Below, in pieces: positions 36,379-52,461 of a stretch of DNA of 64,000 nt; position 1 is the stretch's first letter; each line of letters opens with the position of its first letter. Source of the stretch: Meiothermus sp. (lineage in GTDB: Bacteria > Deinococcota > Deinococci > Deinococcales > Thermaceae); the NCBI RefSeq assembly GCF_026004075.1, contig NZ_BPIK01000001.1, positions 97,501 to 161,500 of the forward strand, read 5' to 3'. The position numbers and the translations under genes were made by a program. The notes beneath the pieces were generated by a model. That model saw only the letters and a program-made list of their open reading frames with translations, was not told the DNA's origin and made no database searches.

Positions 36379-36435
36379 CTCGTTGGGAGCGCCGATGGTT
36401 GGCTGGGCATTCCTAACTACAAAGGTAGTAGGGAG

Positions 36436-36457
36436 GTCTTAACAGGTTCTTAACAGC
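36436..36457 (-). promoter_or_regulatory. 11-bp direct repeats upstream of the subtilase-like gene
   Basis: Read on the minus strand, CTGTTAAGAAC (36447-36457) is followed at once by CTGTTAAGACC (36436-36446). Ten of eleven bases agree. Tandem heptamer-like repeats at 11-bp spacing are the known operator form of SARP/BTAD regulators, and the gene for such a regulator lies next door. The start codon is 58 bases downstream. Confidence 0.65.
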
Positions 36458-36490: not shown

Positions 36491-38590
36491 TCAGTTTTGC
36501 CGGGGTGGGGGTGGTAGGACGTGAGAATCCATCGAACCATCGTCTTTTCGGTACTGCTGATACAAAGCAACCAACCGACCCTCGAGGCGCCGCACTTTTT
36601 CGTGGTGCTCGAGGGTATGCGCTTTGCCAATCAACCGCTTCAGCACACCCTCGTAGTTCACCAGGAAATCCCCCACCTCATCTAGGTGCCCACTCTGCTC
36701 CATGAGCGACAGGGCAACCTCCAATACATCGGGATCGTCGTCCAAGTCGGCGAGGTGGGCCATGGCTACGCCCTGGGTTAGCAACTCACCTGCTTTAGAC
36801 GCGAAGTGCAGAGCATTGCTGAAACGTGACCTAGCCTCAGCAAAATTGCGCTGGGCGGAATAGGTGTACCCCAGATTCAAGTGCAGTCGAGCGATGATTT
36901 CCAAAGCACCGGCTGCCTCGGCAAAAGGAACGGCTTCGAGGTATTGAGCCTCTGCCCTAGCCCAGTCTTTGCGGCGCTCCCAAAGAATGCCTAGGTTGAG
37001 TAGAATTCTTGCCCGCAGAAGAGGATTCTTGCCTGCTTGATCCAAGGCTTCCAGCGCTTGGCGGTAGGCTTGTTCGGCTTCGGCTCTGGCAGACTCGAGG
37101 GCGGTGGCATCCACTCCTTTTTTTTCGGCTTCCCTGGCGATTTTGTCCAGCTCTATGGCGTAATTGTTGAGGCTTCCCACCCAGCGATCCCTGGCCCCTG
37201 CGGTTTGGAACAAGGCAGCAGCTTTTTTGAAGTAGGAGGCAGCCTCGAGAAAATCTCCGCGCGACCCAGCGAGATAGCCCAGGGTGTTGTTGGCGGTGGC
37301 CTTGGCCCACAGCCAGTTCACCCCGCTTTCTAAAACGCTCCTGGCGGCCTGCTGGGCCTCCTGGGGCATTCCCCGCCGCCACAGCAACACCGACTCGAGC
37401 GCTGTGATGTTGGGGTTGCGGAGCTTTTCTGGCAGGGCTTGGAGCAATTCGAGGGCCTCCTTGAAGCGCCCCAACCGCTCGAGCGCGTAGGCTTCCAGGA
37501 ACCGGCTCTCCGAGTCGGGGTCGGTCTCCAGCACCCGCTCGACAGCGCGGATTTGCTCTAGGAGGGCTGCGGCCTCGGCAAACTTGAGCCCGACCATCAG
37601 GGTTTTGGCCCTGGTGGTGTAGGCAGTCCGGGCACGGAGCAAATCCCCCACCCCGCCAAACCCCTGGGTGTGCTCGAGAATCTGGCGATACAAAGCATAG
37701 GCCGCCTCGGGCGGGGTGTGGCGGGCCAGGGCCAGCAGCAGCGAGAGACGTTCGCTGGGATGGGCCTCGAGCCAGCCCTGGGCGCTTCCTCCGGCCAATA
37801 CGCGGTTATTGGCGTCTATCAGTCCTGAAAGAATCAGGGTTTCGTGGGCCTGGGAGAGTTCACCTAAGGGGGTCTCGAGGGCACTTCGCACGATGGTGAG
37901 GTTGGGCTGTTCCTGCAGGGCTAGGGCCAGAAATACCCTGCGGGCTGTCTCGGGCAGGTCATCGAGGCTGGCCTTTGCCGCCGAGCCCACCCGTCGGCTC
38001 AGATCGCTCCCGGTCTGGGCCAGTAACTGCTGGAAGCGGGTCAACAGGGCGGGTTCCAACTCCGGGGCCTCGATCAACGAATAGGCCCGCTCGGCCAAGG
38101 CTCGAGCCTGTTTGGGCTGCTGCCCCACCAGCTCCTCGGCCCGCTCGAGCATCGCCTCCTGGGCTTTCTGTGCGAAGAACTCTCGCTTCTCCAGCACCCA
38201 GTCCAGGAGTTCATCGGAGACCTCGAGCGCCTCCACGGGTTTGCCCAGATCGTGCAGAAAAGGCCCGCCGTAAAGCCCGATGGCCCGCTCGAGATCGCGC
38301 ACTTCTAGGGCCTCGAGGAACTCCAAAGCGTCGCAGCCGACCTGGCTGGGCAGGGGGTTGACCCCTGGCTTGTCGGGGAAAACCTCGGCGGCTCCCTCTT
38401 TTTTGAACTGGGCCAGCACCACCGAAAGATTGCCCAGTGCTTTGGAGCCCCCTTCTTGCCAAAACAGCTCGGCCAGTTTGCGCCGTTCCTGCGGGCCCTC
38501 CAGGGTCACGTAGGCCAGCAGCAGCAAGGGTTTGGGCCGCGAGAAAGCAACCCCCTCCAAACCCACCTTGCCGAAGCTGGCCAGCTTCAT
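36491..38590 (-). CDS. BTAD-type transcriptional regulator with TPR repeats, 699 aa
   Basis: The N-terminus (1-95, FGKVGLEGVAFSRPKPLLLLAYVTLEGPQERRKLAELFW) is the degenerate winged helix, and 95-215 the bacterial transcriptional activation domain (RAIGLYGGPFLHDL, LDWVLEKREFFAQKAQEAML) of SARP-like regulators. From about 290 to 640 the protein consists of TPR-like helical pairs, e.g. LGYLAGSRGDFLEAASYFKKAAALFQ and LNLGYTYSAQRNFAEARSRFSNAL, probably for binding a protein or peptide. No nucleotide-binding motif is seen. ATG 38590 lies six bases after TACAAT, so the message is probably leaderless. CTGTTAAGA elements lie on both sides of the gene, suggesting autoregulation and control of both neighbours. 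Confidence 0.85.
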   Translation of the reverse strand: MKLASFGKVGLEGVAFSRPKPLLLLAYVTLEGPQERRKLAELFWQEGGSKALGNLSVVLAQFKKEGAAEVFPDKPGVNPLPSQVGCDALEFLEALEVRDLERAIGLYGGPFLHDLGKPVEALEVSDELLDWVLEKREFFAQKAQEAMLERAEELVGQQPKQARALAERAYSLIEAPELEPALLTRFQQLLAQTGSDLSRRVGSAAKASLDDLPETARRVFLALALQEQPNLTIVRSALETPLGELSQAHETLILSGLIDANNRVLAGGSAQGWLEAHPSERLSLLLALARHTPPEAAYALYRQILEHTQGFGGVGDLLRARTAYTTRAKTLMVGLKFAEAAALLEQIRAVERVLETDPDSESRFLEAYALERLGRFKEALELLQALPEKLRNPNITALESVLLWRRGMPQEAQQAARSVLESGVNWLWAKATANNTLGYLAGSRGDFLEAASYFKKAAALFQTAGARDRWVGSLNNYAIELDKIAREAEKKGVDATALESARAEAEQAYRQALEALDQAGKNPLLRARILLNLGILWERRKDWARAEAQYLEAVPFAEAAGALEIIARLHLNLGYTYSAQRNFAEARSRFSNALHFASKAGELLTQGVAMAHLADLDDDPDVLEVALSLMEQSGHLDEVGDFLVNYEGVLKRLIGKAHTLEHHEKVRRLEGRLVALYQQYRKDDGSMDSHVLPPPPRQN

Positions 38591-38620: not shown

Positions 38621-38653
38621 CTGTTAAGAGTCCGTCAAGCCCCTGTCAAGAGC
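38621..38653 (+). promoter_or_regulatory. Three 11-bp direct repeats upstream of the lipoprotein operon
   Basis: CTGTTAAGAGT (38621-38631), CCGTCAAGCCC (38632-38642) and CTGTCAAGAGC (38643-38653) are head-to-tail with exact 11-bp period; CCCTTGGCAAG follows in phase but matches poorly. The first nine bases CTGTTAAGA are identical to the repeats before the subtilase-like gene at 36436-36457. The site lies between the divergent BTAD regulator and the gene starting at 38685. Confidence 0.68.
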
Positions 38654-38684
38654 CCCTTGGCAAGCTGCCATCTGGAGGTGAGCG

Positions 38685-39242
38685 ATGACAAGCTTGGGTG
38701 GAAGTTGGCTGATGTTGGGGGCTTTGGCCCTGGGGATTTTGTGGGTGGGGCGAGGCTCACTGGGTCGCGACGACCACCTGGCTGCGTTAATGGCCTTGGC
38801 TAATACACAAGGCCTGGTCGTCACCGAAGTTAAGGTACAGATCAAAAAAATCCAATCCGCAGAACATCTGGCCATCGGTGGCGCTTTGCCAGCTTCTGCA
38901 CTACAGCTTTACAGGTTTGAGGGTCGTATTGCGGGTGTCCAGGCCCTCGAGGGCACCCTGCTGGGCCGGGCAGGGCACCCCCCCCACACCCTGCAGATAC
39001 AGGCCCAGGTGGTGCAAGCCATGGGCTTTACGGCCCAAGGCGCCCCGGTGTTGCTGGGCCAGGCCATAGAGGTGAACCCACCCTTCCAGCGCTACGGATT
39101 TATCGGACATCATCTTGGTTCGTCGCCGGTGGCCTTTATCGAGCAAGCCGCGTTGGAGCAGGGAGTCTATTTGCGCGATACCCAGGTGTTGCGCTTTGAC
39201 CTAGGCCCAGCCCATCCAGTGGAGGCATGGATAGGCCTATGA
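38685..39242 (+). CDS. Exported or membrane-anchored protein of unknown function, 185 aa
   Basis: The N-terminal GSWLMLGALALGILWVGRG is a signal or anchor segment. The rest is soluble and beta-rich, with FEGRIAGVQALEGTLLGRAGHP and YRFEGR; no family recognised. An ideal GGAGGTGA lies seven bases before the ATG. It is the first gene after the 11-bp repeats and is followed, 53 bases later, by two lipoprotein genes, so it probably belongs to the same transcript. Confidence 0.65.
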   Translation: MTSLGGSWLMLGALALGILWVGRGSLGRDDHLAALMALANTQGLVVTEVKVQIKKIQSAEHLAIGGALPASALQLYRFEGRIAGVQALEGTLLGRAGHPPHTLQIQAQVVQAMGFTAQGAPVLLGQAIEVNPPFQRYGFIGHHLGSSPVAFIEQAALEQGVYLRDTQVLRFDLGPAHPVEAWIGL

Positions 39243-39295
39243 GGTTTGGGATGTCTTCCCATTGCGGTGGGAAGTTCCAAGCAAAGGAGATCGAA

Positions 39296-40096
39296 ATGAA
39301 AAGAACCCACGCTGTATTGGCAGTCTTGGCCGCAGTTGCCCTTGGTTTGACCGCCTGCACCCCTCCCGGATCCGATACCCCACCCGCACCGACCATGGGA
39401 GCTATTGCGGAGATTGCGGCCAACCCAGATGTCAACGGAGAGGTCGAGGCCGAACTCAGGTTCAAGGCTGTTGGCAGCAGCCAGGTCTCGAGCGCCCTCC
39501 TAGAGCTCGAGGGCATCTCCTACTTCTTCCTCGAGGCCGAGGGCAGCACCCCTGGCGGGCGGGCCTTTAAGGCCCTGTTGCTCTCCACCAGCAAGGATGC
39601 CTTGAGCCAAGAACAGCCCATGCGGATACGGGCTCGGCGGGTGGTGTCGGGTGGAATTCCGTCACTGGTGGGGGCGGCGTTTGTCAACAGCCCCCAGGCC
39701 GCCGCCACCTGCTCCAGTTGCGCGGGCGTGGCGCTGGTGCTGGTGAACAAGGACAGCACCCTCCCCGGCAACGTCCGCTCGCTCGAGCTGGAGAACACCC
39801 TCATCTCCTCGTATAGCTTTGGCGTCACCCAGACCGGCACCATGGCCTTCCTCGAGACCGCTCAGGGCGGGCCTTTCGCGGCGGGGGCGGCCCTGCTGCC
39901 AGAGCAGAAGGCCTCGAGCGCCGGTCTGCTCTCCTCGCCCATCGGCGTCGGCAGGGCCGCGGCCAGCCCGGCTTTGCTGAGTGCCAAGGTTGAGGCCGTG
40001 CGCACCATCGTCGGGGTGGTGGGCAAGGCCCAGGGCACCCTGGCCCGGCCCGACGGTGCCCCGCGCGGGATCATCGCTATTCTGATCGGGCTCTAG
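39296..40096 (+). CDS. Lipoprotein sharing an N-terminal domain with the ~930-aa lipoproteins, 266 aa
   Basis: Lipoprotein signal peptide with lipobox LTAC (Cys near 22). The segment LEAEGSTPGGRAFKALL followed by MRIRARRVVSGG corresponds to LEATGKTPGGKELKMVF ... MRIQARAAQVQGK in the next gene and EISGTTPKGLPFKAIAL ... LRMKARLRRIQGQ in the protein at 48742, so the three share a domain not known to me. A CxxC pair (CSSC) follows. ATG 39296 has AAAGGAGA upstream. It lies 24 bases before the 929-aa lipoprotein gene. Confidence 0.78.
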   Translation: MKRTHAVLAVLAAVALGLTACTPPGSDTPPAPTMGAIAEIAANPDVNGEVEAELRFKAVGSSQVSSALLELEGISYFFLEAEGSTPGGRAFKALLLSTSKDALSQEQPMRIRARRVVSGGIPSLVGAAFVNSPQAAATCSSCAGVALVLVNKDSTLPGNVRSLELENTLISSYSFGVTQTGTMAFLETAQGGPFAAGAALLPEQKASSAGLLSSPIGVGRAAASPALLSAKVEAVRTIVGVVGKAQGTLARPDGAPRGIIAILIGL

Positions 40097-40120
40097 AGCC
40101 CGGGTAACCGGAGATTTGCT

Positions 40121-42910
40121 ATGAGCCAATTCAAGTTTTTTCTGCTGCTCATTGTGTTCCTGATGGCCCTGGCGGCGTGCTCTCCGCCTAGAGCACCCGA
40201 GGGTGCATCAGATGGCCTCGAGGAACTGCTCCAGGGGGCTGCTGGTGGCGAGATAGACGCCGAGATCACCGTTCAGCCGCTGGCGAGCCTAAAGACCCAG
40301 ACCCTCACCACCCAGGCCCTTCCCACAGCCGACACCCCGCTCCTGCTCGAGGCAACCGGCAAGACCCCCGGCGGCAAGGAGCTGAAGATGGTCTTCTACG
40401 GGGTCTCGGCGGACTCGGCCATCCTGGGTTTCCAGGGCAAGATGCGCATCCAGGCCAGGGCTGCCCAGGTTCAGGGCAAGCGGGTGCTGCGGGGTACGGC
40501 GGTGCAGGTTCAAACCGCCCAGTCGGCTTCGGTGCTCACCCTGCCCTTCCTGGCTACCGGCCCAAACACCACCTTCAGCGGCCCACAGCCGGGCACCGCC
40601 TTCGAGCTGCGCGGTAGTGGGGAGTCGGCCCTGGTCTGCGGCAGCAGCACCCTGGCCGGGGCCTTTAACCAGAGCAGCCAGGGCCAGAGCAACAAGGGCG
40701 TGCTGATCGGGCTGTTCGAGGGGCAAGCCCCCTGCGCTCCTGGGACCAAACTGGCCCCCACCCTGCAAAGCGTGCTCAACCTCACCGCCGTGCAGACCCG
40801 GATGGGCGTGCTGCTGGGCGGCCCCGGCAGCGTGGGCGGGAACAGTTTCGTGCTCCCGGTCTTCGCCCTCACGGTGGGCGAGCAACTGCCCCAGAGCATC
40901 GGCTTCGTGGACGTGGAGGCCGCCGACGGGGTGCGGGTGATGGACGCCGCCGCTACCGCGCAGCTCCTGAGCTTCGACCTCAAGACCGGCACCATGGTCT
41001 TCAAAGAGCTCGCGGGCAGCCTGGCGGGCCTGAGGGTGGGGGACGTAATCGTGGCTACGCCCCGCCCCAAGGCCCCCAACGGCTTCCTGCGTCGGGTGCG
41101 GGAGATCGGTGGGGCCAATGGGGCCATCACCGTGACCACCACCCGGGCCAACCTCAAAGACGCCCTCAAGCGCTCCAACCTGCGCATCGAGCGGCGCTAC
41201 ACCGCCGCCGACGTGCGGCAGGGCGCGGCCCTGGCACAGGGCCAGACCCTCTACGCGGCAGCCCCGCAGGTGAGCGCACAGGCCCTCTTCGACGACATTG
41301 TGATCAACATCAACAAGGTCATCTTCGACCAGGATGGCAACAACTCCACCACCGACGACCAGCTCAAGGTGAACGGCAAGCTGACCTTAGAGCCCAAGAT
41401 CGTGATTGACCTAGACTGCACGGGCTTTTTGTGCAGCAAGCCGGATTTTCTGGCCAAGTTCGAGATGACCGAGACCACCGAGTTGACCGTCACTGGCAAC
41501 CTGGTCTGGGAGGAGGACCAGACCTTCCAACTGGCCCGCATCGTGCTGCCACCCATCACGGCCGCCTTCCTGGTCTTCACCCCGGAGATTGTGGTGGAGG
41601 TGAACATGAGCGGCGAGGTGAGCGTGGGGATGGAGTTCCGTGCCGAGCAGACCATCAGCTTCGAGGCGGGGGTCGAGTACAAGTCGGGCAGCGGCTGGGA
41701 TACTATTGACAGCTTCAGCAAGTCCTTCAGTGCCGACCCACCCAGTTTTGAGGCCGACCTCGAGGCCGAGGCCAGCCTGGGGGTGGAGGGCCGCCTGATG
41801 CTCTACGGGGTGGCGGGCGTCTCGGCGGGCATCGAGCTGTATGCCCACTTTGAGGCCGGTATCCCCCGCGACCCCGCCTGGGAACTCACCGGCGGCCTGC
41901 GCGGCGACATTGGCGTAGACCTCGACATCATCATCTGGCAGGAGGAGTTCTCCATCCCGCTCTTCGACACCAGCTGGACCATCGCCATCGCCCCCAACAC
42001 CGCCCCGGTGGTTACCCGCCTGATCCCGGTGCGCACCTGCTCCGACGGCACCGTGCCGCGCGGCGTGCCCAGCAACCTGGTGACCCTGGACGCCAACACC
42101 GACGACGCCGAGGATGGCAAGGGCCAGGGCACGGTGAGCTGGAGTTCGAACGTCAATGGTTTCCTGGGCACCACCAGCGCGGGCAGCAAGCACCAGCCCA
42201 GCTACAACCTTTCCAATGGCCAGCACACCATCACCGCCACCGTGACCGACTCCAAAGGCAAAACTGGCAGCAAGACCCTCCAGATCGAGGTGGTGTCGGC
42301 CTGCCTCCTGGGGGACGTGCCCCCCACCGTCAGCATCACCAACAGCCCACCGCTCTTAATCGTCGAAGGCCAGCCCTTCACCCTCACCGCTACCACCCAG
42401 GCCGGTTTGAGCCTGAGCTGCTGCCAGGTTACCTGGCGCTCCGACGTGGCGGGCCTGCTGGGTACCAGCAACGGCGGCCCCTGCGCCAGCGGGCAGAACC
42501 AGAAGTGCCACAGCTTCGCCCACACCTTTAATCCAGCGGTTCCCCAAACCATCACCGCGACCGTGACCCATAACGGGGCCACCGCCACCGACAGCCTCGA
42601 GCTGGGGGCGCTCACCCAGACCCGCAGCAACCCCAACCTGGGCCAGATCACCCAGACCAACCCCAGCGGGAGTGCCTACGCCTACGAGGACGACAGCGTA
42701 AACTTCAGCGCTACCGCGACCAACGCCACCCTGCGCTGGACCTCCTCCAACAGCGCCGACACCTTCACCAGCCCCGGCAGCTCCAGCACCGGCGTGAGCT
42801 TCGCCACGCCCGGGGTTCGCACCCTGACCGTGACGGCCAAGACCCCCGACGGCGGCTTTAGTAGCAAAAGCTTAAAGGTGAACGTGCTCCCCGCACTGGC
42901 TAAACCCTAA
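40121..42910 (+). CDS. Large lipoprotein with C-terminal Ig-like domains, 929 aa
   Basis: Lipobox LAAC (Cys20). Domain order by eye: shared lipoprotein domain (about 40-260); a region to about 400 containing a SFDLKTGTMVFKELAG and APNGFLRRVREI motif; a beta-rich middle (about 400-625) with LMLYGVAGVSAGIELYAHFEAG; then three Ig/PKD-like segments (about 630-725, 730-825, 835-925), the first with DANTDDAEDGKGQGTVSWSS. Cys pairs in the middle and Ig parts suggest disulfides. It is probably a surface or periplasmic binding protein; ligand unknown. It is homologous along its length to the 928-aa lipoprotein at 48742-51528. Confidence 0.82.
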   Translation: MSQFKFFLLLIVFLMALAACSPPRAPEGASDGLEELLQGAAGGEIDAEITVQPLASLKTQTLTTQALPTADTPLLLEATGKTPGGKELKMVFYGVSADSAILGFQGKMRIQARAAQVQGKRVLRGTAVQVQTAQSASVLTLPFLATGPNTTFSGPQPGTAFELRGSGESALVCGSSTLAGAFNQSSQGQSNKGVLIGLFEGQAPCAPGTKLAPTLQSVLNLTAVQTRMGVLLGGPGSVGGNSFVLPVFALTVGEQLPQSIGFVDVEAADGVRVMDAAATAQLLSFDLKTGTMVFKELAGSLAGLRVGDVIVATPRPKAPNGFLRRVREIGGANGAITVTTTRANLKDALKRSNLRIERRYTAADVRQGAALAQGQTLYAAAPQVSAQALFDDIVININKVIFDQDGNNSTTDDQLKVNGKLTLEPKIVIDLDCTGFLCSKPDFLAKFEMTETTELTVTGNLVWEEDQTFQLARIVLPPITAAFLVFTPEIVVEVNMSGEVSVGMEFRAEQTISFEAGVEYKSGSGWDTIDSFSKSFSADPPSFEADLEAEASLGVEGRLMLYGVAGVSAGIELYAHFEAGIPRDPAWELTGGLRGDIGVDLDIIIWQEEFSIPLFDTSWTIAIAPNTAPVVTRLIPVRTCSDGTVPRGVPSNLVTLDANTDDAEDGKGQGTVSWSSNVNGFLGTTSAGSKHQPSYNLSNGQHTITATVTDSKGKTGSKTLQIEVVSACLLGDVPPTVSITNSPPLLIVEGQPFTLTATTQAGLSLSCCQVTWRSDVAGLLGTSNGGPCASGQNQKCHSFAHTFNPAVPQTITATVTHNGATATDSLELGALTQTRSNPNLGQITQTNPSGSAYAYEDDSVNFSATATNATLRWTSSNSADTFTSPGSSSTGVSFATPGVRTLTVTAKTPDGGFSSKSLKVNVLPALAKP

Positions 42911-42919
42911 ACACAATGC

Positions 42920-42950
42920 CGGGGTGAGAAGGTAGGTTCTTCTCACCCCG
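42920..42950 (+). terminator. Strong hairpin after the first large lipoprotein gene
   Basis: CGGGGTGAGAAG (42920-42931) pairs perfectly with CTTCTCACCCCG (42939-42950) over 12 bp with a 7-base loop. No T-run follows, so it may be a Rho-aided terminator or a 3' stabiliser. Confidence 0.65.
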
Positions 42951-43097
42951 CCATCTCAGATTCCTGGTTCCCTAGATGCCCTAACCACTGTTTACTTGGT
43001 TTCCTTGTAGCTATCCGTCAACCTGTACCGCTCATGGCAGGTCTTGCGGGGATGCCAACCTACGACAGCAAACCTGCTCCAAGAACACGAGGTGTAT

Positions 43098-43643
43098 ATG
43101 ACTACAATCCGCCGCTTCATCATTATGCTGTTTGTCCTAGCGTTTCCGATGATTTCCGCCCAGAGTAGTTGGCCCCCCCACGTCGCCGTGGTTGCGCCCG
43201 TAGAGCGGGGTAAGGTGGTGGCGGTAAGCGGGAAGTTGGAGAACGGCATCGCTATCCCCGACCTCTCCTGGGCTTGGCGCTCGAGCGTGGCCTGCTTTGT
43301 CCAGTTGCAAGCCCATAAGTTTGCGGCCAAGCATGTGATTTTTGCCACCCAAACCAAGCTGACTGGGATTGGCGAACTGACGGTTAGGGTGATCCCCAGC
43401 GACCCCAACGCCAACCTCAGTTTGTGGGTCTATGCCAGCAACGGTTACCAGTTACCGCCCAACCTCCAAAGCGTGCGGAGCTGCGAGGCCGACTTCAAGT
43501 GGGATCGGCCCTTCAAAAACCAGACCCAAGACCACACCCGCTATATCACCATGGGCACCAAAAGCGAGGGCATCGTGATTGGGGTCAGTGGCCCCGCCGA
43601 AATGACGGCAGCCGACTTCACCCTCGAGATCAGCGTCAAGTAG
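43098..43643 (+). CDS. Secreted protein of unknown function, 181 aa
   Basis: A signal peptide (about 1-22, TTIRRFIIMLFVLAFPMISAQS) precedes a beta-rich mature domain: VAVVAPVERGKVVAVSGKL, LTVRVIPSDPNANLSLWVYASNG and EGIVIGVSGPAEMTAADFTLEISVK. This beta-sandwich pattern resembles the pre-peptidase C-terminal type of domain, but I am not certain. Two Cys (CFVQL, SCEADF) may form a disulfide. It lies in a group of three unrelated small exported proteins between the two large lipoprotein modules. Confidence 0.65.
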   Translation: MTTIRRFIIMLFVLAFPMISAQSSWPPHVAVVAPVERGKVVAVSGKLENGIAIPDLSWAWRSSVACFVQLQAHKFAAKHVIFATQTKLTGIGELTVRVIPSDPNANLSLWVYASNGYQLPPNLQSVRSCEADFKWDRPFKNQTQDHTRYITMGTKSEGIVIGVSGPAEMTAADFTLEISVK

Positions 43644-43768
43644 CTGGGCTAAGTGGAAAGATGGATATTCAGTGAAGTTCCCGGAATGAAGCGCTCAAAG
43701 CAACTCCCAGGTCATAAAGGGCTAAATCCATCCCAGAAATTAAGTTACCAGAGCACCAAGGAGTCGCC

Positions 43769-44200
43769 ATGAAGATTTTGCTCAGTTTACTAATGTCTGT
43801 AGTGCTGCAGGTCCTGCTCACGTCTGCCCTTGGTCAGACCCTACGCGACGATGCCCAGATGCGCTCGAGTGACGTAGATATTCCCAATCGGGTTCAGGTT
43901 GGGCGCACCTATCGGGTGAGCGTGAAGGTTACGAATAACGGAACCACCACGTGGCAAGCCCGTAAATACTTTCTGAGAGTCAGGATTGTGCGCGGCCCCT
44001 CTGGCAGCCCGACCCAGCGTGAGCATCTGACTCCCCATCTCGAGCTAAAGGACCCCGTGGCTCCTGGTGAATCCCACGCCTTCTCGTATGAAATCGAAGG
44101 CCCCCCCTATCTTGGGGAGTATCGGTTGGAATGGGTGATGTCCAATGGGCATGACGATTTCGGCGATCGTGTGACACGAACCATAAGGGTAGTCGAGTAA
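43769..44200 (+). CDS. Secreted protein with NBR1-type Ig-like domain, 143 aa
   Basis: A signal peptide (1-22, ending SALGQ) precedes one domain with VQVGRTYRVSVKVTNNGTTTWQARKYFLRV ... VAPGESHAFSYEIEGPPYLGEYRLEWVMSNGHDDFGDRV. The NxGTxxW, VaPGe and FGd features match the NBR1 four-Trp/Ig-like domain found in bacterial surface proteins. It probably mediates protein contacts outside the cell. AAGGAG precedes the ATG at suitable distance. Confidence 0.72.
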   Translation: MKILLSLLMSVVLQVLLTSALGQTLRDDAQMRSSDVDIPNRVQVGRTYRVSVKVTNNGTTTWQARKYFLRVRIVRGPSGSPTQREHLTPHLELKDPVAPGESHAFSYEIEGPPYLGEYRLEWVMSNGHDDFGDRVTRTIRVVE

Positions 44201-44474
44201 AACGGCCGTAAGAGGAGACCCGCGATGAAACCAATGCCGTACCACGCCCTTCAGGCCCAGCCGCTGGAGCCAAATCTGCCGGGGCAGAATCCAGCCAGCA
44301 CCTGCTGGAAATAAACGGCTCGGCCTCGATCAAGACCGCGCTCTACAATCCCTAGTCACCTCCGTGGGTTGGGCGCTCTGGAAGCTAGGCGGGTTTCGCC
44401 TATCAAGGTGGCCTAAGGACTGCGGCTTTGTAAAGCCCTCTCTACCGCTCTGCATTGAGCCAAGGAGGAAAACC
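44201..44474 (+). other. Non-coding gap with possible gene remnant
   Basis: The 274 bases hold no convincing gene. ATG 44223 after AGAGGAGA opens a 29-codon frame ending at TAA 44310-44312. In another frame an open stretch from about 44214 to TAG at 44353 ends LEINGSASIKTALYNP, which looks protein-like; the two could be parts of a decayed or frameshifted gene. A short perfect palindrome GGCTTT-GT-AAAGCC lies at 44424-44437, before the next gene. Confidence 0.3.
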
Positions 44475-45071
44475 ATGAACACACTTTGGAACCAAGCAGT
44501 TGGGCTGATGTCGGTGGCTTTGTTGGGTGTGGGTTTGGCCCAAAGCGGCGGGGCAATTTCCATTCGCCAAGCTTTCATCAACGGCAAGGCATTGGTAGCC
44601 ATGACCGCCCCCAAGCCACTGGCCCTCAACGGGTTCAAGCAAAGCTACAGCTACGGCCTTACCCTGCGCGATGTATATACCCAAGCGGGCGTTGCTAACT
44701 TTGGACTGGTGCTGGCCTCGAGGTCGGGCACGGCCGCCGACACCATTAGCTTTTCTTTCTCCGGCCCTTATAGCCAGATTCAGGCTGCCACCGCCAACAC
44801 CTTGCAACTGCTCTTTACGGCGGCGACTTGCCTGGGTGTGCCCCCATCCCAACTCAAAGCCCTCAATCAACCCGGCGAGTTTTTGAATGTGCTGCAACAG
44901 GCGTTTGGCTCGAGGCGATCCACCAGCTTTAGCAAGCGTTACAGCGGGGTGAACTTCACCCTCAACAATGTGGACTTTTCTGGGGGTGCAGCCAGATACA
45001 CCATCCTCCTGAGCAACCCCGGACAGGTGGGCCAGGGGGGCTGGAACAACTACTGCGCGGTTCGGAACTAG
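44475..45071 (+). CDS. Secreted protein of unknown function, 198 aa
   Basis: A signal peptide (about 1-27, ending GVGLAQS) leads into a mature region rich in Ser, Ala and Asn: ISFSFSGPYSQIQAATANTLQLLFTAATCLGVPPSQLKAL. Two Cys, one at the very end (NNYCAVRN), may pair. No family recognised. ATG 44475 follows CAAGGAGGAAAA. No terminator with a clean T-run was found, although GCTAAAA/TTTTAGC at about 45104-45122 can pair. Confidence 0.62.
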   Translation: MNTLWNQAVGLMSVALLGVGLAQSGGAISIRQAFINGKALVAMTAPKPLALNGFKQSYSYGLTLRDVYTQAGVANFGLVLASRSGTAADTISFSFSGPYSQIQAATANTLQLLFTAATCLGVPPSQLKALNQPGEFLNVLQQAFGSRRSTSFSKRYSGVNFTLNNVDFSGGAARYTILLSNPGQVGQGGWNNYCAVRN

Positions 45072-45370
45072 TAGATCTTCGACGGATCAAGGACCGGCGG
45101 GTGGCTAAAAGCTTTTTTTAGCGAACTGCGTCCAGGCCACTGCCAACTTACTCACGAAGTGGAGGAATAATTCGAAGAGTAGCTTTAAGGCAAGCAATTA
45201 TCGCACTCTTCACAGACGTGGTCTCCCCTCCGGGAGGCCACTGTGCTGTGCAGGACAAAGCCATCCAGTTGTATGTGGCTCAATAATTGTGAAGAGCCCT
45301 CTAGCAAGGCCCCAAGGTCGCCTTCTTTGTGCAAGGGTCGAAATACATCGCCTCAAATGGGGTTTTTCTA
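45072..45370. other. Non-coding region before the NB-ARC regulator
   Basis: About 300 bases without a gene. It holds a stable hairpin at 45218-45241 (GTGG-T-CTCCC, loop CTCC, GGGAG-G-CCAC) and a 9-base inverted repeat, CTCTTCACA near 45206 and TGTGAAGAG near 45289, which bracket it. These could form one longer structured element or regulatory sites; base composition is less GC-rich than the surrounding genes. Confidence 0.45.
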
Positions 45371-45376
45371 TACAAT
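45371..45376 (+). promoter_or_regulatory. -10 box of the NB-ARC regulator gene
   Basis: TACAAT lies eight bases before ATG 45385 with no Shine-Dalgarno sequence, consistent with a leaderless message. This supports the downstream ATG over an in-frame start at 45289. Confidence 0.5.
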
Positions 45377-45384
45377 CAAATGTA

Positions 45385-48264
45385 ATGGAAGTGCGGCTGC
45401 GACTGCTGGGTACGCCCCGACTCGAGGCGGATGGGGTGGGGAGCGAGTTGCCCCTGGATCGTCCCGCCGCGCTGGGCTATTACCTGGCCCAGCGCGGCGA
45501 CTGGGTGCGGCGCAGCGAGCTGGCTTACCTCTACAGCCCCGAGGCCGACGAGGCCGCTGCTTTTGCCAACCTGCGCAAGCTGGTCTACCGGCTGCGCCAG
45601 CAGGGCTGGGCGGGGGTGCTGGAAGCCGAAGCCACGCGCTTGCGGCTCTGCATCCCCACCGATGTGCAGGCCTTTCGGGCGGCCCTCGAGCGCCGCGACT
45701 GGGCAGGGGCCCTCGAGCTCTACGGGGGCCCCTTTTTGCAGGGGCTGGCCTTTCCCGACCTGAGCGGCTACGAGGCCTGGCTGGAGCTCGAGCGCCAGGA
45801 TTTAGCGCGGGCCTGGCGCAGCGCGCTGATGGAGCAGGTGCGGCTGCTGGAAACCCAGGCCGACTGGCTAGGGGCCGAACGCTGGCTCTCCAAGCTGCTG
45901 GCCGCAGACCCGCTCGACGAGGAGGCCGTGCAGGCCCAAATCCGGGTTCTGCGCGCGGCGGGGCGGTTGGCCCAGGCCCAGGAGGTTTTCGAACGCTTCC
46001 GCCGCAGCCTGAAGCTCGAGCTGGGGGTGGAGCCCCTGGAGTCAACCCGTGCGCTCGCCGATGGTCTGGATTCCCAAAACCCAGCCGCAGCCCACCCCCG
46101 GCACAACCTGCCCGCGGCCAGCACCCGCTTTATTGGGCGAAGCCGCGAACTCCGGGCGCTGAACCGCCAACTGGCCAACCCTGACTGCCGCTTGCTGACG
46201 GTGGTGGGGCTGGGCGGCATGGGCAAGACCCGCCTGGCCCTCGAGCTGGCCTCCCAGCAGACCCAGCGCTTCGACGACGGGGTCTGGCTGGTGGCACTGG
46301 CCGGGGTGGCCTCGCCCGAGCAGTTGGTCTCGAGCATTGCCAGTGCCCTGGGCTTTACCTTTGCGGGGTCTACCGACCCCAAGACTCAGTTGCTCAACTA
46401 CCTGCGCGGCAAGACGCTGCTCTTGCTGCTGGATAACTTCGAGCACCTGCTGGAAGGGGCCCCTTTGCTGGAGGAACTGCTGACCCAGGCCCCCGGCCTC
46501 AAACTGCTGGTGACCTCGAGGGCGGCCCTGGAGCTCCCCGGTGAGTGGCTCTTCGACCTGGAGGGCCTGGGCTACCCACCCCCCCAGACCGAAGAAGATC
46601 TGGACGGCTTCGACGCGGTGCGGCTTTTCATCGCGCGGGCCGAGCGGCTTTCCAGCAGCTTTGTGATCACCCCCGCGACCCTCGAGGCCATCGCCGAGCT
46701 GACCCGCCGGGTACAGGGTATGCCGCTGGCCATCGAACTCCTGTCCACCTGGGTGCGCGGCCTGGGGGTGGGGGAGATTCTGGCCCAACTGGGCCACAGC
46801 TTCGGGCTATTGCAAACCTCCCAGCGCGACCTGCCCGAGCGCCACCGCAGCCTGCGGGCCATCCTCGAGTACACCTGGCAGCTTTTGACCGAGGCCGAGC
46901 AGGCGGTGCTGGCCAAACTCTCGGTTTTCCGGGGAGGGTTCACCCTCGAGGCCGCCCAGAGCGTGGCGGGGGCGCATCTGGGGCTATTGCTGCGCTTTAT
47001 CAACCAAGCCCTGCTACGGCGGGGTGAGGACGGGCGCTACGACCTGCACGAGCTGGTGCGGCAGTTTGCAGCGGAGAGGCTAGACGAACTGGGCAAAGCA
47101 GAGGAGACGCTCGAGGGGTATTTAGACTACTTTCAGGGCTTTGCACAAGAGGCCCTAAGGAACTTAAACGGTGAGCATCAAATAAGGTGGCTGTCGAAGC
47201 TAAAAACTGAACACACCAACTTGATTAACGCTTTGGATGAAGGGTTTGTAAAACTTCCCGATAAAGCAGTTGCGCTGTTGGCATATCTTGGGCCGTACTG
47301 GCATTTATTCGGATTGTATGCCGAGGGGGAACGGAGATTGCGCTCTTCACTGGACAAGCTTTCGGTACTTCAAGTTAGGTTGCAGGCGATTATTCTTATC
47401 GAATATCTGCGAATTCTGTTTGGGATCGGTAGGTATAAGGAGACTCAGGGACTGCGATCACGGATTCTTGGCTTGTGCCGGAGCGCTGGTGACCTCCGCC
47501 TCGAGGCTGAGCTATACAACCAACTCGGCTGGGCAGCGACAAGTCAAAGGCAGTTTGAACAAGCTCGAGTTTGTTTTGACAAGGCACTGTCTATAGCGGA
47601 ACAACTCTCTGACTCGAGGCTGAAGGTTTCTGTCACGCTAAATTTAGCCCGCATGGCGGGTTTCCAAAATCAGCCCGATCAGGCCTTAGCTTATCAGCAA
47701 AAGGCTTTAGCTGAAGCTCGTGCAATTCTGGATACGGTTGCGCAACTGAGGTGCCTAACTGCGATGGGTTGGGCTACCTTGGTTAAGGGTGATTACATCC
47801 AGTCTGTTGAATTTAGCCAACAAGCACTGGAATTAGCTTTGTTCGTGGGATCGAAAAGTTATTTAGCCATAGTTCAAGGCAATTTGGGCTTTGCTAAATG
47901 GCAGATGGGAGAGCGCGAGGGAGGGGAGCAAGTCTATCGTCAACATCTAATTCTGCATCTCGAACAGGGCGCAATGGAGTATTTCTTTGAAAACGCTTTC
48001 GAGCTTGCTCGGTTTTGGAGTGAGCTTGGTTATTCAGATGATGCGGTTCGACTTTGGGGTTATGCTGAGGGGATACGATCTGAGTTTCAGTTTGTAAAAT
48101 TCCCTGGATATGAAGAGATAAAAGCTAAAGTTCTGGGCACAATTGTTAGCAAAGAAATAGAAGAACTTTTGAAGCAAACCAAACATCCGTCGCTCCAAGA
48201 AATTTTGCATTTCTTGAAGGTAGTGGCTCGGGGCCAACCAAAATCAGCGGGCAAGTTGCAGTGA
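45385..48264 (+). CDS. BTAD/NB-ARC/TPR transcriptional regulator, 959 aa
   Basis: SARP-LAL-type signalling regulator. In order: winged helix (1-95, RLRLLGTPRLEADG...LAYLYSPEADEAAAFANLRKLVYRLR), BTAD (95-245, ALELYGGPFLQGLAFPDLSGYEAWLELER), then an NB-ARC ATPase with Walker A GLGGMGKT near 275, Walker B LLLLLDNFEHL near 346 and GMPLAIELL near 445, and C-terminal TPR-like repeats (about 600-930). Ligand-dependent ATP binding would control DNA binding. Base composition falls from about residue 575 onward: 46501-46560 has 40 G+C of 60 whereas 47221-47280 has 25 of 60, so the sensor half may have a separate origin. The large lipoprotein module lies downstream. Confidence 0.88.
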   Translation: MEVRLRLLGTPRLEADGVGSELPLDRPAALGYYLAQRGDWVRRSELAYLYSPEADEAAAFANLRKLVYRLRQQGWAGVLEAEATRLRLCIPTDVQAFRAALERRDWAGALELYGGPFLQGLAFPDLSGYEAWLELERQDLARAWRSALMEQVRLLETQADWLGAERWLSKLLAADPLDEEAVQAQIRVLRAAGRLAQAQEVFERFRRSLKLELGVEPLESTRALADGLDSQNPAAAHPRHNLPAASTRFIGRSRELRALNRQLANPDCRLLTVVGLGGMGKTRLALELASQQTQRFDDGVWLVALAGVASPEQLVSSIASALGFTFAGSTDPKTQLLNYLRGKTLLLLLDNFEHLLEGAPLLEELLTQAPGLKLLVTSRAALELPGEWLFDLEGLGYPPPQTEEDLDGFDAVRLFIARAERLSSSFVITPATLEAIAELTRRVQGMPLAIELLSTWVRGLGVGEILAQLGHSFGLLQTSQRDLPERHRSLRAILEYTWQLLTEAEQAVLAKLSVFRGGFTLEAAQSVAGAHLGLLLRFINQALLRRGEDGRYDLHELVRQFAAERLDELGKAEETLEGYLDYFQGFAQEALRNLNGEHQIRWLSKLKTEHTNLINALDEGFVKLPDKAVALLAYLGPYWHLFGLYAEGERRLRSSLDKLSVLQVRLQAIILIEYLRILFGIGRYKETQGLRSRILGLCRSAGDLRLEAELYNQLGWAATSQRQFEQARVCFDKALSIAEQLSDSRLKVSVTLNLARMAGFQNQPDQALAYQQKALAEARAILDTVAQLRCLTAMGWATLVKGDYIQSVEFSQQALELALFVGSKSYLAIVQGNLGFAKWQMGEREGGEQVYRQHLILHLEQGAMEYFFENAFELARFWSELGYSDDAVRLWGYAEGIRSEFQFVKFPGYEEIKAKVLGTIVSKEIEELLKQTKHPSLQEILHFLKVVARGQPKSAGKLQ

Positions 48265-48293
48265 ATATGCGGTGTGTTCAGAGAAGTTCTTAG

Positions 48294-48416
48294 TTATCGG
48301 ATGACGTGATCGTTTCCCTGGGCCATTGCCGTGGGCAGAATAGGTACTAGAGCCACATAGAAACAAAGAACCCGTCTAGTGATCAACTTTATTTTGATTA
48401 TTTTTCTTTTCATCAT
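48294..48416 (-). CDS. Possible short secreted peptide, 40 aa
   Basis: A 40-codon frame encodes a basic N-terminus (MMKRKIIKIKLITRR), a hydrophobic core (VLCFYVALVPILP) and an AMA-type cleavage site, leaving a mature tail QGNDHVIR. This is the layout of exported signal peptides such as Phr. A -10-like GATACT lies nine bases before the ATG on the minus strand. It converges on the TPR-containing regulator 30 bases away. It could equally be a chance frame or the remnant of a longer exported protein. Confidence 0.3.
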   Translation of the reverse strand: MMKRKIIKIKLITRRVLCFYVALVPILPTAMAQGNDHVIR

Positions 48417-48456
48417 ACTCACCACAGTATCGTATTGAGTTTGACAGCCCAACCCA

Positions 48457-48478
48457 ATGGAACGCCCATGGAACGCCC
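48457..48478 (+). promoter_or_regulatory. Perfect 11-bp tandem repeat upstream of the second lipoprotein module
   Basis: ATGGAACGCCC occurs twice without spacing (48457-48467, 48468-48478). A consensus -35 TTGACA stands at 48441-48446, 10 bases before. The 11-bp period equals that of the repeats at 38621 and 36436, but the sequence differs, as expected if the other BTAD regulator binds here. The next start codon is at 48497. Confidence 0.6.
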
Positions 48479-48496
48479 GGCCACCAGACTGGGGGC

Positions 48497-48688
48497 ATGG
48501 CCGTCGCAAAGGTTCACTCGAGTTACATCCTGCGCCTGACCCAGCGGCTTAGTCGGCTGACCTACGAGCTGCGCGACGTGCGTACGGGTCAGGTGCGGCA
48601 GTTCGAAAGCGCCAGGGAACTCTCGAGCTACCTCGAGACGATGGTCATGGAGGCTCCACCTGAACCTGTCAAGGGCAGAGGACGCTAG
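48497..48688 (+). CDS. Small protein of unknown function, 63 aa
   Basis: The sequence SSYILRLTQRLSRLTYELRDVRTGQVRQFESARELSSYLETM has the feel of the small beta-beta-alpha proteins (LRD..TGe.r.F.s..eL..yL) that often stand before large secreted or regulatory genes in Chloroflexi and Deinococcota. It is cytosolic and has no signal. It starts 18 bases after the 11-bp repeats, and its end contains a CTGTCAAGG sequence. The large lipoprotein gene follows after 53 bases. Confidence 0.6.
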   Translation: MAVAKVHSSYILRLTQRLSRLTYELRDVRTGQVRQFESARELSSYLETMVMEAPPEPVKGRGR

Positions 48689-48741
48689 GGGCGGGGTGGA
48701 GCAAGGAGAGAGTTCTGTGGCTCAAGTAGGGAGGTAAGGGT

Positions 48742-51528
48742 ATGAAGCAGTGGATTTTGGGAGCGGTATTGGGGCTGGTTCTGGCAGCTTGCGGTGGGGG
48801 CACCTCGACGCCGCCCACGCCTTCCGAGCTGGCCGAGCTAATCACGGGCGGTGATCAGGCCGAGGCCCAGGTGACGCTGGAGGTTCTGCGTAGTTTCAAG
48901 CCGGCCACCATCAGCACCCAGTTCAACCCTTTTATTGGCGGCCTGACCGTCTACGAGATTTCCGGCACCACCCCCAAGGGGCTGCCCTTCAAGGCCATTG
49001 CCCTGGGGGATGAGGGCCTCGAGCCCGATGCGCTGCGGGGGCAACTGCGCATGAAGGCCCGGCTGCGCCGGATTCAGGGGCAGGTGGTGCTGGCGGGCTG
49101 GCTGGTGCCACGGGACCCCAACTCTACCCTGAACCCCATCGCCTTTATTGCAGCGGCCCAGAACGCCAATTTCAGGGGCCCGACCGCGGGCACGGTCTAC
49201 CAGTTCAGCGGGATGGCCGAGTTTAGGGGGGTCTGCGAGGAGAAGGGCCTCAGCGGTTCGTACAGCCTCAAGCAAGGCAACCTCGAGCTCGTCGGAGCCC
49301 TGACGGGCGTGCGGGCTGGCGAGACGCTGGGCTGCACCCCCGGCGAGGTGCAGGAGCAAAACCTGCCCGTCGCCCTGAGTTACACCGCCGTGGAGACCCA
49401 TATGGGCACTATCTTCAGCTTCCAGGGCAGCCTGGCGCCGGGGGCTGGAGGCGCCTCAGCGCGGGGCCAGGTGCAATCGGCGATGCCCTCCCAGGGCCTC
49501 ACCCTCACACCCCCCACCCTGCCGGCCAGCCCCCTTGTGGCGAACGTTGCCCTCAAGCCCAACGTCAAGGAGCTGGGCAACGTCTCGGGGGCCGAGCTGG
49601 TGAGCTTCGACCAGGACAACGGAACCCTCATCTTCAACCGGCTGGCGGGCAACCTGCGCGAACTGGCCGTGGGCGATATTGTCGCCAGCGCCCCCCGCAA
49701 CGCCGCCCCCAACGGCTTTCTGCGCCGTGTAACCGGTATCGAAAACACCAGCGATGGCAAGGTGCGGGTTCGCACCGCCAAGGCCAACGTGGCCGACCTG
49801 CTGGACGAGAGCGACATTCAAATGGACCTTCCGCTGAGCGAGGCCGATGCCCAGCGGGCCACGGCCCTCGAGCGCGGCCAGATTATCTATGCGGCCCAGC
49901 AACTAGGCCCCTCGGCCCAGAGCCAGATCACCAAAAACTTTGGCCCCATAGAGGTGATAGAAGGCGTCACGGTGAGCGGCTTTGTGCGTTTTACCCCCAA
50001 AATTGTGGTCAAGTTCCAGTGCCGCAGGACTTTCTGCTCCGAGCCATACCTACTGGCCAAGTTCGTGCTGAACGAGCGGGCCGAGGTTCGCCTCAACGCC
50101 ACCCTAGAAAAAACCCTGCACAAATCCATCCAGATTGCACGGGTTCCGCTGGGCACCATTACCGCAGGGCCGCTGGTGTTCTTAATTGACGTGGTCTTTA
50201 CGGTGGATGTGGAGGGCAAGCTGCGGGTGGAGCTCGAGGTAGGAGCCTGGCAGGAGCTCGAAATAGAAGCGGGGACGGAGTACAACAAGGACTTCAATGG
50301 TCGCTTCCAAAAAATCAACGAGATCACCAAAAACGAGCGGGGCATCATCGGCCCGACCATCGAGGGCAGCGCTGAACTCAAGGCGGGGGTGTATGGGGCT
50401 TTGCGGCTCATGCTCTACGGGGTAGCGGGGGTCTCGGCCGAGGCTGGGCCTTACGTCCAGTTCAATGCCCAGTACCCCCGCCAGCCCTACTGGACCATGA
50501 AGTTTGGCCTCGAGGGCAATCTGGGGGTGGATATTGACCTGCTCATTTTCCGCAAGGAGTGGGACGTCAACCTCTTCGATATTGAGCTGTTTACCGAGCA
50601 GGCTCCCAACTCGCCGCCCAAGTTCGACGACATCGGCCCCAAGTATGCGTGCAACAGCGGCTACGCGGCCCGCAACGCCTCAGACAAGGTGGTGTTGTCT
50701 GCCAGCACCGACGACAAAGAAGACGGCCCCGGCACGGGCACCATCCAGTGGCGCAGGGGCAACAACCTGCTGGGCACCACCACCAAGGCCGACAAGCACA
50801 CCCTCGAGGTAGACCTGCCCAACGGAACCCACACCCTCACCGCGACCCTCACCGACAGCCAAGGAACCTCGCGCACCCGCAGCTTCGAGGTAAAGCTGGC
50901 CGCCAACCAGTGCCAGTTCCCCAACGGTTTGCCGTACGTGAATATCGTAGGCAACAGCGATGAAGGGCTGCCTTCCCCGTTCCCTTATTACGCCAATCTT
51001 ACCGCCCGCACTTGGCCGTTCTCACAGGCTGGTTGTCCTACCCACGAGGTGTTCTGGCGATCGAACCTGCAACGCCGTAGCCTGGGCAGCACCAATGGGG
51101 TTTTTGTGCCGGCCAGCGGAGGGGTGGGGCCATTCTGCGAGCATAGCTTCCAGGTGCAAAAGATGGCGGATCGCCAGGTGATCACCACGCGGTTCACCCT
51201 AAACGACCTTGTTGTTAAGGACACCACCGAGGTTCTGCCCTCGAGAATCCTCAGCCTGAATATCGGCGGCATCCAGTACAGCGCCCCCAGCAACAGCCGT
51301 TACATCTACGTGGGCGATCAGGTCAACTTTACCGTGAGCGGGGATAACCCGGTGTGGAGCTCGAGCGAGCCCGCCGACAACATCAACGGGCGCAGCGGCA
51401 ACAGCGTGAACGCCCGCTTCAACACCCCAGGCCCCCGCACCATCGTGGCCCAGGTGTCGGATGGCAACGGCGGGTTCAACTCCAAGAGCCGCATCATCTA
51501 CGTGCATAGCGGGCTGGCCCGGCCCTAG
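48742..51528 (+). CDS. Large lipoprotein with C-terminal Ig-like domains, 928 aa
   Basis: Lipobox LAAC (Cys17) and acidic/Pro linker, then the same order as the 929-aa protein at 40121: shared domain with TPKGLPFKAIAL, SFDQDNGTLIFNRLAG near 295 and APNGFLRRVTGI near 327, beta-rich middle with LMLYGVAGVSAEAGPYVQFNAQYPRQPYW near 555, DTDDKEDGPGTGTIQWRRG-like Ig segment near 655 (ASTDDKEDGPGTGTIQW), and two further Ig-like segments ending GPRTIVAQVSDGNGGFNSKS. Cys positions are largely conserved between the two. Start after AGGGAGGTAAGGGT. It is probably exposed on the cell surface; ligand unknown. Confidence 0.82.
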   Translation: MKQWILGAVLGLVLAACGGGTSTPPTPSELAELITGGDQAEAQVTLEVLRSFKPATISTQFNPFIGGLTVYEISGTTPKGLPFKAIALGDEGLEPDALRGQLRMKARLRRIQGQVVLAGWLVPRDPNSTLNPIAFIAAAQNANFRGPTAGTVYQFSGMAEFRGVCEEKGLSGSYSLKQGNLELVGALTGVRAGETLGCTPGEVQEQNLPVALSYTAVETHMGTIFSFQGSLAPGAGGASARGQVQSAMPSQGLTLTPPTLPASPLVANVALKPNVKELGNVSGAELVSFDQDNGTLIFNRLAGNLRELAVGDIVASAPRNAAPNGFLRRVTGIENTSDGKVRVRTAKANVADLLDESDIQMDLPLSEADAQRATALERGQIIYAAQQLGPSAQSQITKNFGPIEVIEGVTVSGFVRFTPKIVVKFQCRRTFCSEPYLLAKFVLNERAEVRLNATLEKTLHKSIQIARVPLGTITAGPLVFLIDVVFTVDVEGKLRVELEVGAWQELEIEAGTEYNKDFNGRFQKINEITKNERGIIGPTIEGSAELKAGVYGALRLMLYGVAGVSAEAGPYVQFNAQYPRQPYWTMKFGLEGNLGVDIDLLIFRKEWDVNLFDIELFTEQAPNSPPKFDDIGPKYACNSGYAARNASDKVVLSASTDDKEDGPGTGTIQWRRGNNLLGTTTKADKHTLEVDLPNGTHTLTATLTDSQGTSRTRSFEVKLAANQCQFPNGLPYVNIVGNSDEGLPSPFPYYANLTARTWPFSQAGCPTHEVFWRSNLQRRSLGSTNGVFVPASGGVGPFCEHSFQVQKMADRQVITTRFTLNDLVVKDTTEVLPSRILSLNIGGIQYSAPSNSRYIYVGDQVNFTVSGDNPVWSSSEPADNINGRSGNSVNARFNTPGPRTIVAQVSDGNGGFNSKSRIIYVHSGLARP

Positions 51529-51558
51529 TGCAACGGCTGTGCACACCGAGGTGTCGAG

Positions 51559-52461
51559 ATGAAACCATGCCTTATGTTTTGGGTGCTGGTGCTGCTGGGA
51601 GGGGCCATCCCCTCCCAGGCCCAGACCGCCTACCGCCCCACCGTGCAGCTCACCGACCTTTTGGGCCTGCGCTTCTTCCCCCAGAGCGGGCTGTTCCAGT
51701 TCGACGGCCTTCAGATCGCTTTTCCTAAAGCAGGGGAAACCTACTCGCTGGAGCTGCGCCGGGCCGGTGGGGCGGTGATTTACAAGGTTGGCTTAGATTT
51801 GCAAGAAGTCAGCGGCTTTCCCGCCTTTGGCTGGCTGAACCCACAGGAGCGCGGCTCGGATAAATTCAAGCTCAGCGAGGGCGGAAAGTACGAGCTGGCC
51901 GTGCGGATGGGCAGCCAGGAGATCGGGGTGGTGGCCTTCGAGGCCAGGGCCACCGACTCGGGCGATGCCTTCAACCCCGGCAAAACCTTCCGGCTGGTAG
52001 GCCACTGGGATCGATGGGCCTACCTCTACACCAGAGATGGCGAACCCAACGCCCGCCTTTACGTGGTGGGCTGGGTGACCGACAGTGAGTTTGGCCCCAA
52101 CCGCAGCGACCGCTGGGTGACGGTGCAGATCACCAAAGGCGGCAGCGTACTGTGCAAGTCGGAGGTGTTTGTGGATGCCCCCCACTGGTCACGCTACCGC
52201 TTCGATGTGGCCCGGCCCAACAGCAACGCCCCCTGCACCCTGGCCGACCTTCAGAAAGCCGATGGCGAGTATGGGCTCGAGTTCCGCTCCAAGGCCAGGC
52301 TGCTGCGAAAGTTCAACTTCCGCGTGGCCAACAAGCAAATCCAGCGCATCCCCCGCAACACCCTGCCCTATCTGAGCGCCAACTGGGGCGGAATTCCCTC
52401 CAAGCTGGTCAACAGCGACTTGCAGCTACAGGAAACCTTCTGGTTTGAGGCCTCGAGGTAA
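51559..52461 (+). CDS. Secreted protein of unknown function, 300 aa
   Basis: A signal peptide (about 1-22, LMFWVLVLLGGAIPSQAQ) precedes a beta-rich mature protein. Repeated patterns AGETYSLELRRAGGAVIYKVG, GGKYELAVRMGSQEIGVVAFEA and DGEYGLEFRSKARLLRKFNFRV suggest two or three Ig-like sandwiches. It follows the large lipoprotein by 30 bases and is closed by a terminator, so it is the last gene of the second module. No family recognised. Confidence 0.7.
   Translation: MKPCLMFWVLVLLGGAIPSQAQTAYRPTVQLTDLLGLRFFPQSGLFQFDGLQIAFPKAGETYSLELRRAGGAVIYKVGLDLQEVSGFPAFGWLNPQERGSDKFKLSEGGKYELAVRMGSQEIGVVAFEARATDSGDAFNPGKTFRLVGHWDRWAYLYTRDGEPNARLYVVGWVTDSEFGPNRSDRWVTVQITKGGSVLCKSEVFVDAPHWSRYRFDVARPNSNAPCTLADLQKADGEYGLEFRSKARLLRKFNFRVANKQIQRIPRNTLPYLSANWGGIPSKLVNSDLQLQETFWFEASR

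Follow-up and report, generated by a model that had tools for sequence, protein, structure and literature searches.

Regulator-lipoprotein modules of Meiothermus as probable SARP-type switches for surface proteins

Two neighbouring gene clusters of a Meiothermus sp. probably form local switches of the SARP type, each of which would drive its own set of surface-protein genes through a DNA word of its own. They lie in a window of 64,000 nucleotides (G000:C1:97501-161500), the window being the whole stretch of DNA that we analysed, from a genome of 3.25 Mb (G000). To our knowledge, SARPs have been studied almost only as activators of antibiotic clusters in Streptomyces. This kind of switch is familiar from that genus; its use for surface proteins, the repertoire of words and a small partner protein look new. 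Read in this way, SARP promoter logic recurs far from Streptomyces, in another phylum, where it is linked to surface lipoproteins, exported proteases and nitrate respiration, as a readable code of one word per regulator, together with an unnamed family of small proteins that are nearly always beside a BTAD regulator.

Layout of the two modules

Module 1 consists of a regulator gene, REG1, between two putative targets with the common word CTGTYAAG (word A), a subtilase lipoprotein gene and the run EXP185-LP266-BIG1 (38685-42910). In module 2, the regulator gene REG2 is followed by S63, which has TGGAACGCCCN (word B) twice at its promoter, and then by BIG2 and E300. Gene starts were taken from a mechanical caller, and lipoboxes and signal peptides were called by pattern. 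Features are given with their positions in the window and their strand:

34786-36378, -, SUBT: subtilase (S8) lipoprotein with LIAC lipobox (PF00082, E=6e-19), word A upstream; putative REG1 target
36435-36456, -, operator A1, before SUBT: CTGTTAAGAAC.CTGTTAAGACC, 7 nt, -10-like TACCTT (36427-36422)
36491-38590, -, REG1: divergent SARP-type regulator with winged helix, BTAD-like part and TPR, no STAND ATPase
38621-38653, +, operator A2, before EXP185: CTGTTAAGAGT.CCGTCAAGCCC.CTGTCAAGAGC, 7 nt, -10-like CAAGCT (38661-38666)
38685-39242, +, EXP185: exported protein, leads the module 1 run; open frame
39299-40096, +, LP266: lipoprotein of 265-266 aa
40121-42910, +, BIG1: 929-aa lipoprotein with N-terminal domain, beta-rich core and C-terminal Ig/PKD-like domains
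42920-42950, no strand assigned, 12-pair inverted repeat directly 3' of BIG1, where the module 1 transcript likely ends; terminator-like, listed for the - strand
43044-43643, +, E199: exported protein, conserved cluster partner
43769-44200, +, E143: exported protein with N_BRCA1_IG-like domain (PF16158, E=2e-9)
44364-45071, +, E235: exported protein, conserved cluster partner
45382-48264, +, REG2: AfsR-type large SARP (winged helix, BTAD, NB-ARC/STAND, TPR)
about 48458-48479, +, operator B, before S63: TGGAACGCCCA.TGGAACGCCCG, 5 nt, -10-like CAGACT (48485-48490)
48497-48688, +, S63: 63-aa protein, apparently leaderless; its family adjoins BTAD regulators
48742-51528, +, BIG2: 928-aa lipoprotein, BIG1 paralogue
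51559-52461, +, E300: secreted 300-aa protein 3' of BIG2; open frame with signal peptide

Every gene named in a preliminary description of this DNA was confirmed as an open frame at the position given there, although the start of LP266 was corrected to 39299 and module 1 starts at 34786, outside the interval (38685-52461) that had been assigned to the two modules. The ~930-aa proteins are indeed paralogous over their full length, as had been proposed (BIG1 and BIG2 show 33% identity over 962 columns, 419 bits), and are mutual closest relatives within their genome. Other members of the family have in common a core, at approximately residues 260-630, plus Ig/PKD-like C-terminal domains, and LP266 is related to both large lipoproteins in its N-terminal part, which matches their N-terminal domain with 28% over 109 aa (E=2e-6 when the database consisted of two sequences). 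The AlphaFold model of BIG1 was too weak to identify its fold (pLDDT 55, fold-search TM scores of ca. 0.1), and hence supports only the description "all-beta, Ig-like". The lipoprotein alignment, when run against named genomes, caught the PKD motif and mostly unrelated PKD proteins; only its Deinococcales matches were retained.

Orthologues of SUBT (85% identical, with the same operator), EXP185 (53%, in equivalent position) and BIG2 (77%) occur in G002, the genome of a relative. Its locus L119/L051 is syntenic with the 39299-45071 region of the window and has a 542-aa frame after EXP185 instead; homologues of BIG1, LP266, E199, E143 and E235 were not found at this locus. E143 and E300 showed no relatives in the other loci examined.

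Regulators and operators

REG2 matches in Pfam BTAD (PF03704, E=2.5e-12), NB-ARC, AAA_22 and TPR_12. Its sequence matches the AfsR structures 8k60 and 8jke, with the AfsR structure covering residues 111-574, and the profile of its family (14 homologues) matches EmbR (2fez, 6-239) and AfsR (8hvr, 4-232) over the winged helix and BTAD. REG2 thus has the N-terminal OmpR-like winged helix followed by BTAD that characterizes SARPs and, after it, the NOD/STAND ATPase and TPR of large SARPs. The assignment of REG1 as a BTAD/TPR regulator held in part: TPR is found by Pfam and its family is a divergent relative of BTAD regulators in profile-profile comparison (probability 99.3, 163 columns), but REG1 itself has no Pfam BTAD (PF03704) match. 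The NOD/STAND ATPase segment expected of a large SARP is missing from REG1 and present in REG1 homologues.

REG1 and REG2 have in common only ca. 111 N-terminal residues plus the TPRs. They belong to different subfamilies, and each is closest to another regulator of its own genome, REG2 with 37% identity over 867 aa and REG1 with 40% to a third regulator that is not that of REG2. An origin of the modules by duplication, as first suggested, is therefore upheld for BIG1 and BIG2 but not for the regulators, and a duplication of the whole module is not borne out.

As first described, 11-bp tandem repeats are present at the promoters of both modules, and their words differ, CTGTYAAG in module 1 vs TGGAACGCCCN in module 2. 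The REG1 gene sits between operators A1 and A2; the latter is formed by three [CT][CT]GT[TC]AAG-type units (GTYAAG words) in exact 11-nt steps, and at operator B, 48457-48478 is a perfect 2 x 11 repeat. No sigma-70-like -35/-10 pair was found in the region. The CAGACT box ends 6 nt 5' of the S63 ATG, and a -10 box shortly before the ATG is likewise found in leaderless genes of the phylum (PMC12340547). According to the published rule, SARPs recognize 11-bp direct repeats whose 3' copy lies 8 bp from the -10, and AfsR, a SARP-NOD-TPR protein, covers the -35 position as a side-by-side dimer (PMC10936776). Here, too, 11-bp direct repeats stand at -35 with the 3' repeat ca. 8 bp from the -10. The -10-like boxes have the form yAnnnT, and the departure of CAAGCT and CAGACT from TANNNT counts against the reading as SARP-type switches.

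In G002, the orthologues are preceded by these same words. Operator A1 and its -10 (TAATTT there) are kept and part of the upstream flank diverges; the triple repeat of A2 is kept before EXP185, and a second operator B pair lies directly before BIG2. At the S63 promoter, the two genomes agree at 75-95% in the repeats and -10 region (95% in -40..-20), vs 20-25%, the chance level, in the flank beyond -60. The pattern TGGAACG-N4-TGGAACG has three occurrences in 18 genomes of the genus, all at the module 2 locus or its G002 counterpart, and none when read backwards as a control. A restricted word A pattern gave six matches vs three in its control and was dropped as evidence.

Because the promoter anatomy of the modules fits the published rule closely, we infer that REG2 activates S63-BIG2-E300, and that REG1 activates the subtilase gene and EXP185-LP266-BIG1; the lipoproteins are, by the same anatomy, predicted targets and not demonstrated sensors. 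In AfsR, the NOD and TPR parts are inhibitory until ATP binding (PMC10936776). REG2 would be held off by its own STAND and TPR parts until ATP and a cytoplasmic signal were bound, whereupon its winged helices would form a side-by-side dimer on the two TGGAACGCCCN repeats, substitute for the absent -35 and recruit RNA polymerase to CAGACT; a leaderless S63 transcript would continue into BIG2 and E300. REG1 would act likewise via CTGTYAAG at both flanking promoters, towards the subtilase gene on one side and EXP185-LP266-BIG1 on the other.

The STAND and TPR architecture, the subtilase, and generic TPR and subtilase matches in PADLOC could also evoke a STAND-ATPase defence system, with the regulator as an NLR-like sensor and the subtilase and small protein as effectors. 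We regard this as extremely improbable, given that the STAND protein bears a SARP DNA-binding module and has likely cognate operators, that the subtilase and lipoproteins are exported, and that PADLOC, which gave only those generic matches and none to known defence models, does not match REG1, BIG1, BIG2 or S63.

Words and targets across the genus

The survey took in the neighbourhoods of about 80 BTAD regulators, most of them from the genus, and counted as near those lipoprotein genes at 3.5 kb or less from the regulator and as period-11 repeats those with 9/11 or better. BTAD genes reach up to 14 per genome in the genus, and their proposed recurrence beside such lipoproteins was confirmed across it and also in other families. 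Lipoproteins make up 15.6% of the genes near regulators vs 6.8% farther off (p=5e-6), and of 24 lipoproteins of the core family, 12 have a Pfam BTAD match no farther than 6 kb away (0.9 expected). The preliminary description had counted lipoproteins without BTAD neighbours against the pairing; these exist in part, in that several core lipoproteins (e.g. in G016 and G012) have no Pfam-detectable BTAD nearby. Beyond the 12 counted above, at least three core lipoproteins have REG1-type neighbours that Pfam missed (L014, L058, L074).

Period-11 repeats occur in 19 of the 79 near-regulator lipoprotein promoters, vs a mean of 1.7/79 for ten other periods and 8/107 for lipoprotein or secreted genes far from a regulator. 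Among the repeat-bearing near-regulator promoters, 22/36 have TANNNT 7-11 nt 3' of the second copy, and almost never at other offsets, and this spacing is found in eight of 17 word groups. At the threshold used, no operator was found for 47/83 surveyed regulators; of 422 genes at a distance from any regulator, 17 pass this operator test too. The intergenic DNA of the loci also shows many period-7 repeats (22 cases).

Each type of regulator has its own repeat word at adjoining promoters, in agreement with the earlier suggestion of a separate operator per regulator. The words found include CAGTCAT, CTGTYAAG, CGTTCA, GAGAAAC, TGCAACG, TAACG and TTGACRCCC. They agree at 15-18 of 24 positions between orthologous regulators and at ca. 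10-11/24 between regulators less than 50% identical; in a Mantel-type test, the similarity of words tracks that of regulators only above 50% regulator identity, and orthologues owe some of their promoter similarity to common descent. With a word of its own for each regulator type, many switches could coexist in one genome without cross-talk, which would make available activator-operator pairs that are natural, mutually orthogonal and probably thermostable, and assign a likely function to many unannotated regulators and small genes of the phylum.

A Deinococcales MAG of another family (L055/L080) has a REG2-type regulator facing a core lipoprotein gene with TGAAACGCT twice, in the geometry of operator B and with a related word (TGAAACGCT, 5 nt, CAAAGT). 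After the core lipoprotein follow an S63 and homologues of E199 (59%) and E235 (30%), the latter two adjoining, indicating that of the exported proteins encoded between modules 1 and 2, at least two out of three have travelled with such clusters.

A regulator of ca. 1140 aa is found across the genus (L013 536-3130 (-), L068, L124, L139, L145, L162, L171) with the common word CAGTCAT, which precedes genes for InlB-repeat or subtilase lipoproteins. Many BTAD-linked lipoproteins (L121, L126, L127, L139) are S8 subtilases like SUBT, and others are PQQ propellers or InlB-repeat proteins.

The 11-bp repeats might instead bind another factor, with regulator and target being neighbours only through mobile, fast-evolving clusters of surface genes; some lipoprotein clusters do lack a regulator, and 11 bp, one helical turn, suits many dimeric activators. 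We consider this unlikely: words are specific to the regulator type, word B being confined to REG2 loci, repeats and -10 spacing agree with the published SARP rule, and repeats concentrate near BTAD genes (the 19/79 vs 8/107 above).

Slightly less probable still is the reading advanced in the preliminary description, envelope-stress sensing, in which the large lipoproteins would perceive conditions outside the cell and pass a signal on to the cytoplasmic regulator paired with them. It is consistent with the recurrent pairing and with the Ig/PKD-like domains of the lipoproteins, typical of surface proteins. However, Pfam finds no transmembrane or extracytoplasmic domain in REG1, REG2 or any module protein, and the modules contain no candidate transducer. 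In addition, the same type of regulator also pairs with unrelated secreted proteins, namely subtilases, a PQQ propeller and InlB-repeat proteins, and, in a DnrS-like case (see below), with nitrate reductase, indicating that the common factor is the promoter and not the lipoprotein.

The S63 family and related systems

The S63 family comprises proteins of about 56-81 aa without any Pfam match. A genome-wide search of 18 genomes gave 46 strong matches, of which 42 are no more than 4 kb away from a BTAD gene, where 1.2 would be expected. This count is somewhat favoured by a seed alignment taken from BTAD-linked loci; three of the remaining four are on contigs without a BTAD match. The family is present in 49/111 genomes of the phylum, was not found in an arbitrary sample of ten non-Deinococcota genomes, and is found near 34 of the 83 surveyed regulators. 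At representative S63 promoters, a 9-nt word is repeated (7/9 or better) at lag 11 in 11 of 13 cases, vs 0-3 at other lags. Most of the weaker matches are more distant; those at G000:C1:1128811-1128969 and G000:C1:1873834-1873965, for example, have no BTAD gene close by and may serve other types of regulators. An AlphaFold model of S63 alone, a 50-residue helix, was set aside because the family alignment shows a strand-like pattern instead.

S63 would be a dedicated cytoplasmic partner made together with the targets, most likely serving the regulator as an adaptor or in feedback. We propose, more tentatively and at somewhat less than even chances, that S63 proteins are a new family of co-regulators of BTAD/STAND activators, which would be made from the activator's own first promoter, bind back to its TPR/STAND part and set or limit the response; with private 11-bp words, they would make up an expandable set of orthogonal switches in Deinococcota, largely for surface and exported proteins. 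No earlier description of the S63 family or of SARP codes in Deinococcota was found in the open-access literature.

Among the closest known systems is AfsR-AfsS from Streptomyces coelicolor, which, like module 2, has a SARP-NOD-TPR regulator, two 11-bp direct repeats and a poor -10 of the form CA...T (CACTGT there). AfsS is a 63-aa protein whose gene is a direct target of AfsR (PMC2267785, PMC10936776), and S63 is analogous to it in position and size, as compared through the published description of AfsS. However, AfsS is described with three 12-aa repeats, whereas the S63 alignment, by eye, shows no internal repeat. The two systems also differ in that AfsR-AfsS governs antibiotic synthesis, whereas here the putative targets extend into surface lipoproteins, the promoter is apparently leaderless and there are many regulator-word pairs per genome.

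Within the same phylum, Thermus thermophilus needs the BTAD protein DnrS to express the adjacent nar operon (PMC6282519), which resembles the dependence on a neighbouring regulator that is predicted for the modules. Unlike REG1 and REG2, DnrS is an oxygen-responsive GAF-BTAD activator, with a C-terminal BTAD and no STAND sensor block, and controls respiration instead of surface proteins. The genome of the window also contains a counterpart with the same layout, in which a DnrS-like GAF-winged helix-BTAD gene (L018, 8349-10310 (+), at C1 about 569-571 kb) is divergent from an S63-type gene (8067-8258 (-)) that precedes genes for a cytochrome c, narG, narH, narJ and narI and has CTGTAAG 11-bp repeats upstream. 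These repeats are a candidate DnrS-type operator and predict where regulators of the DnrS type bind DNA; the literature examined contained no published site for them.

SARP-LAL regulators such as PimR are also large SARPs with an ATPase-type C-terminal half, although they are pathway-specific regulators of antibiotics in Streptomyces, unlike the modules described here. The site of PimR contains three heptamers with 4-nt spacing, that is, an 11-bp period (PMC10972967), as does operator A2.
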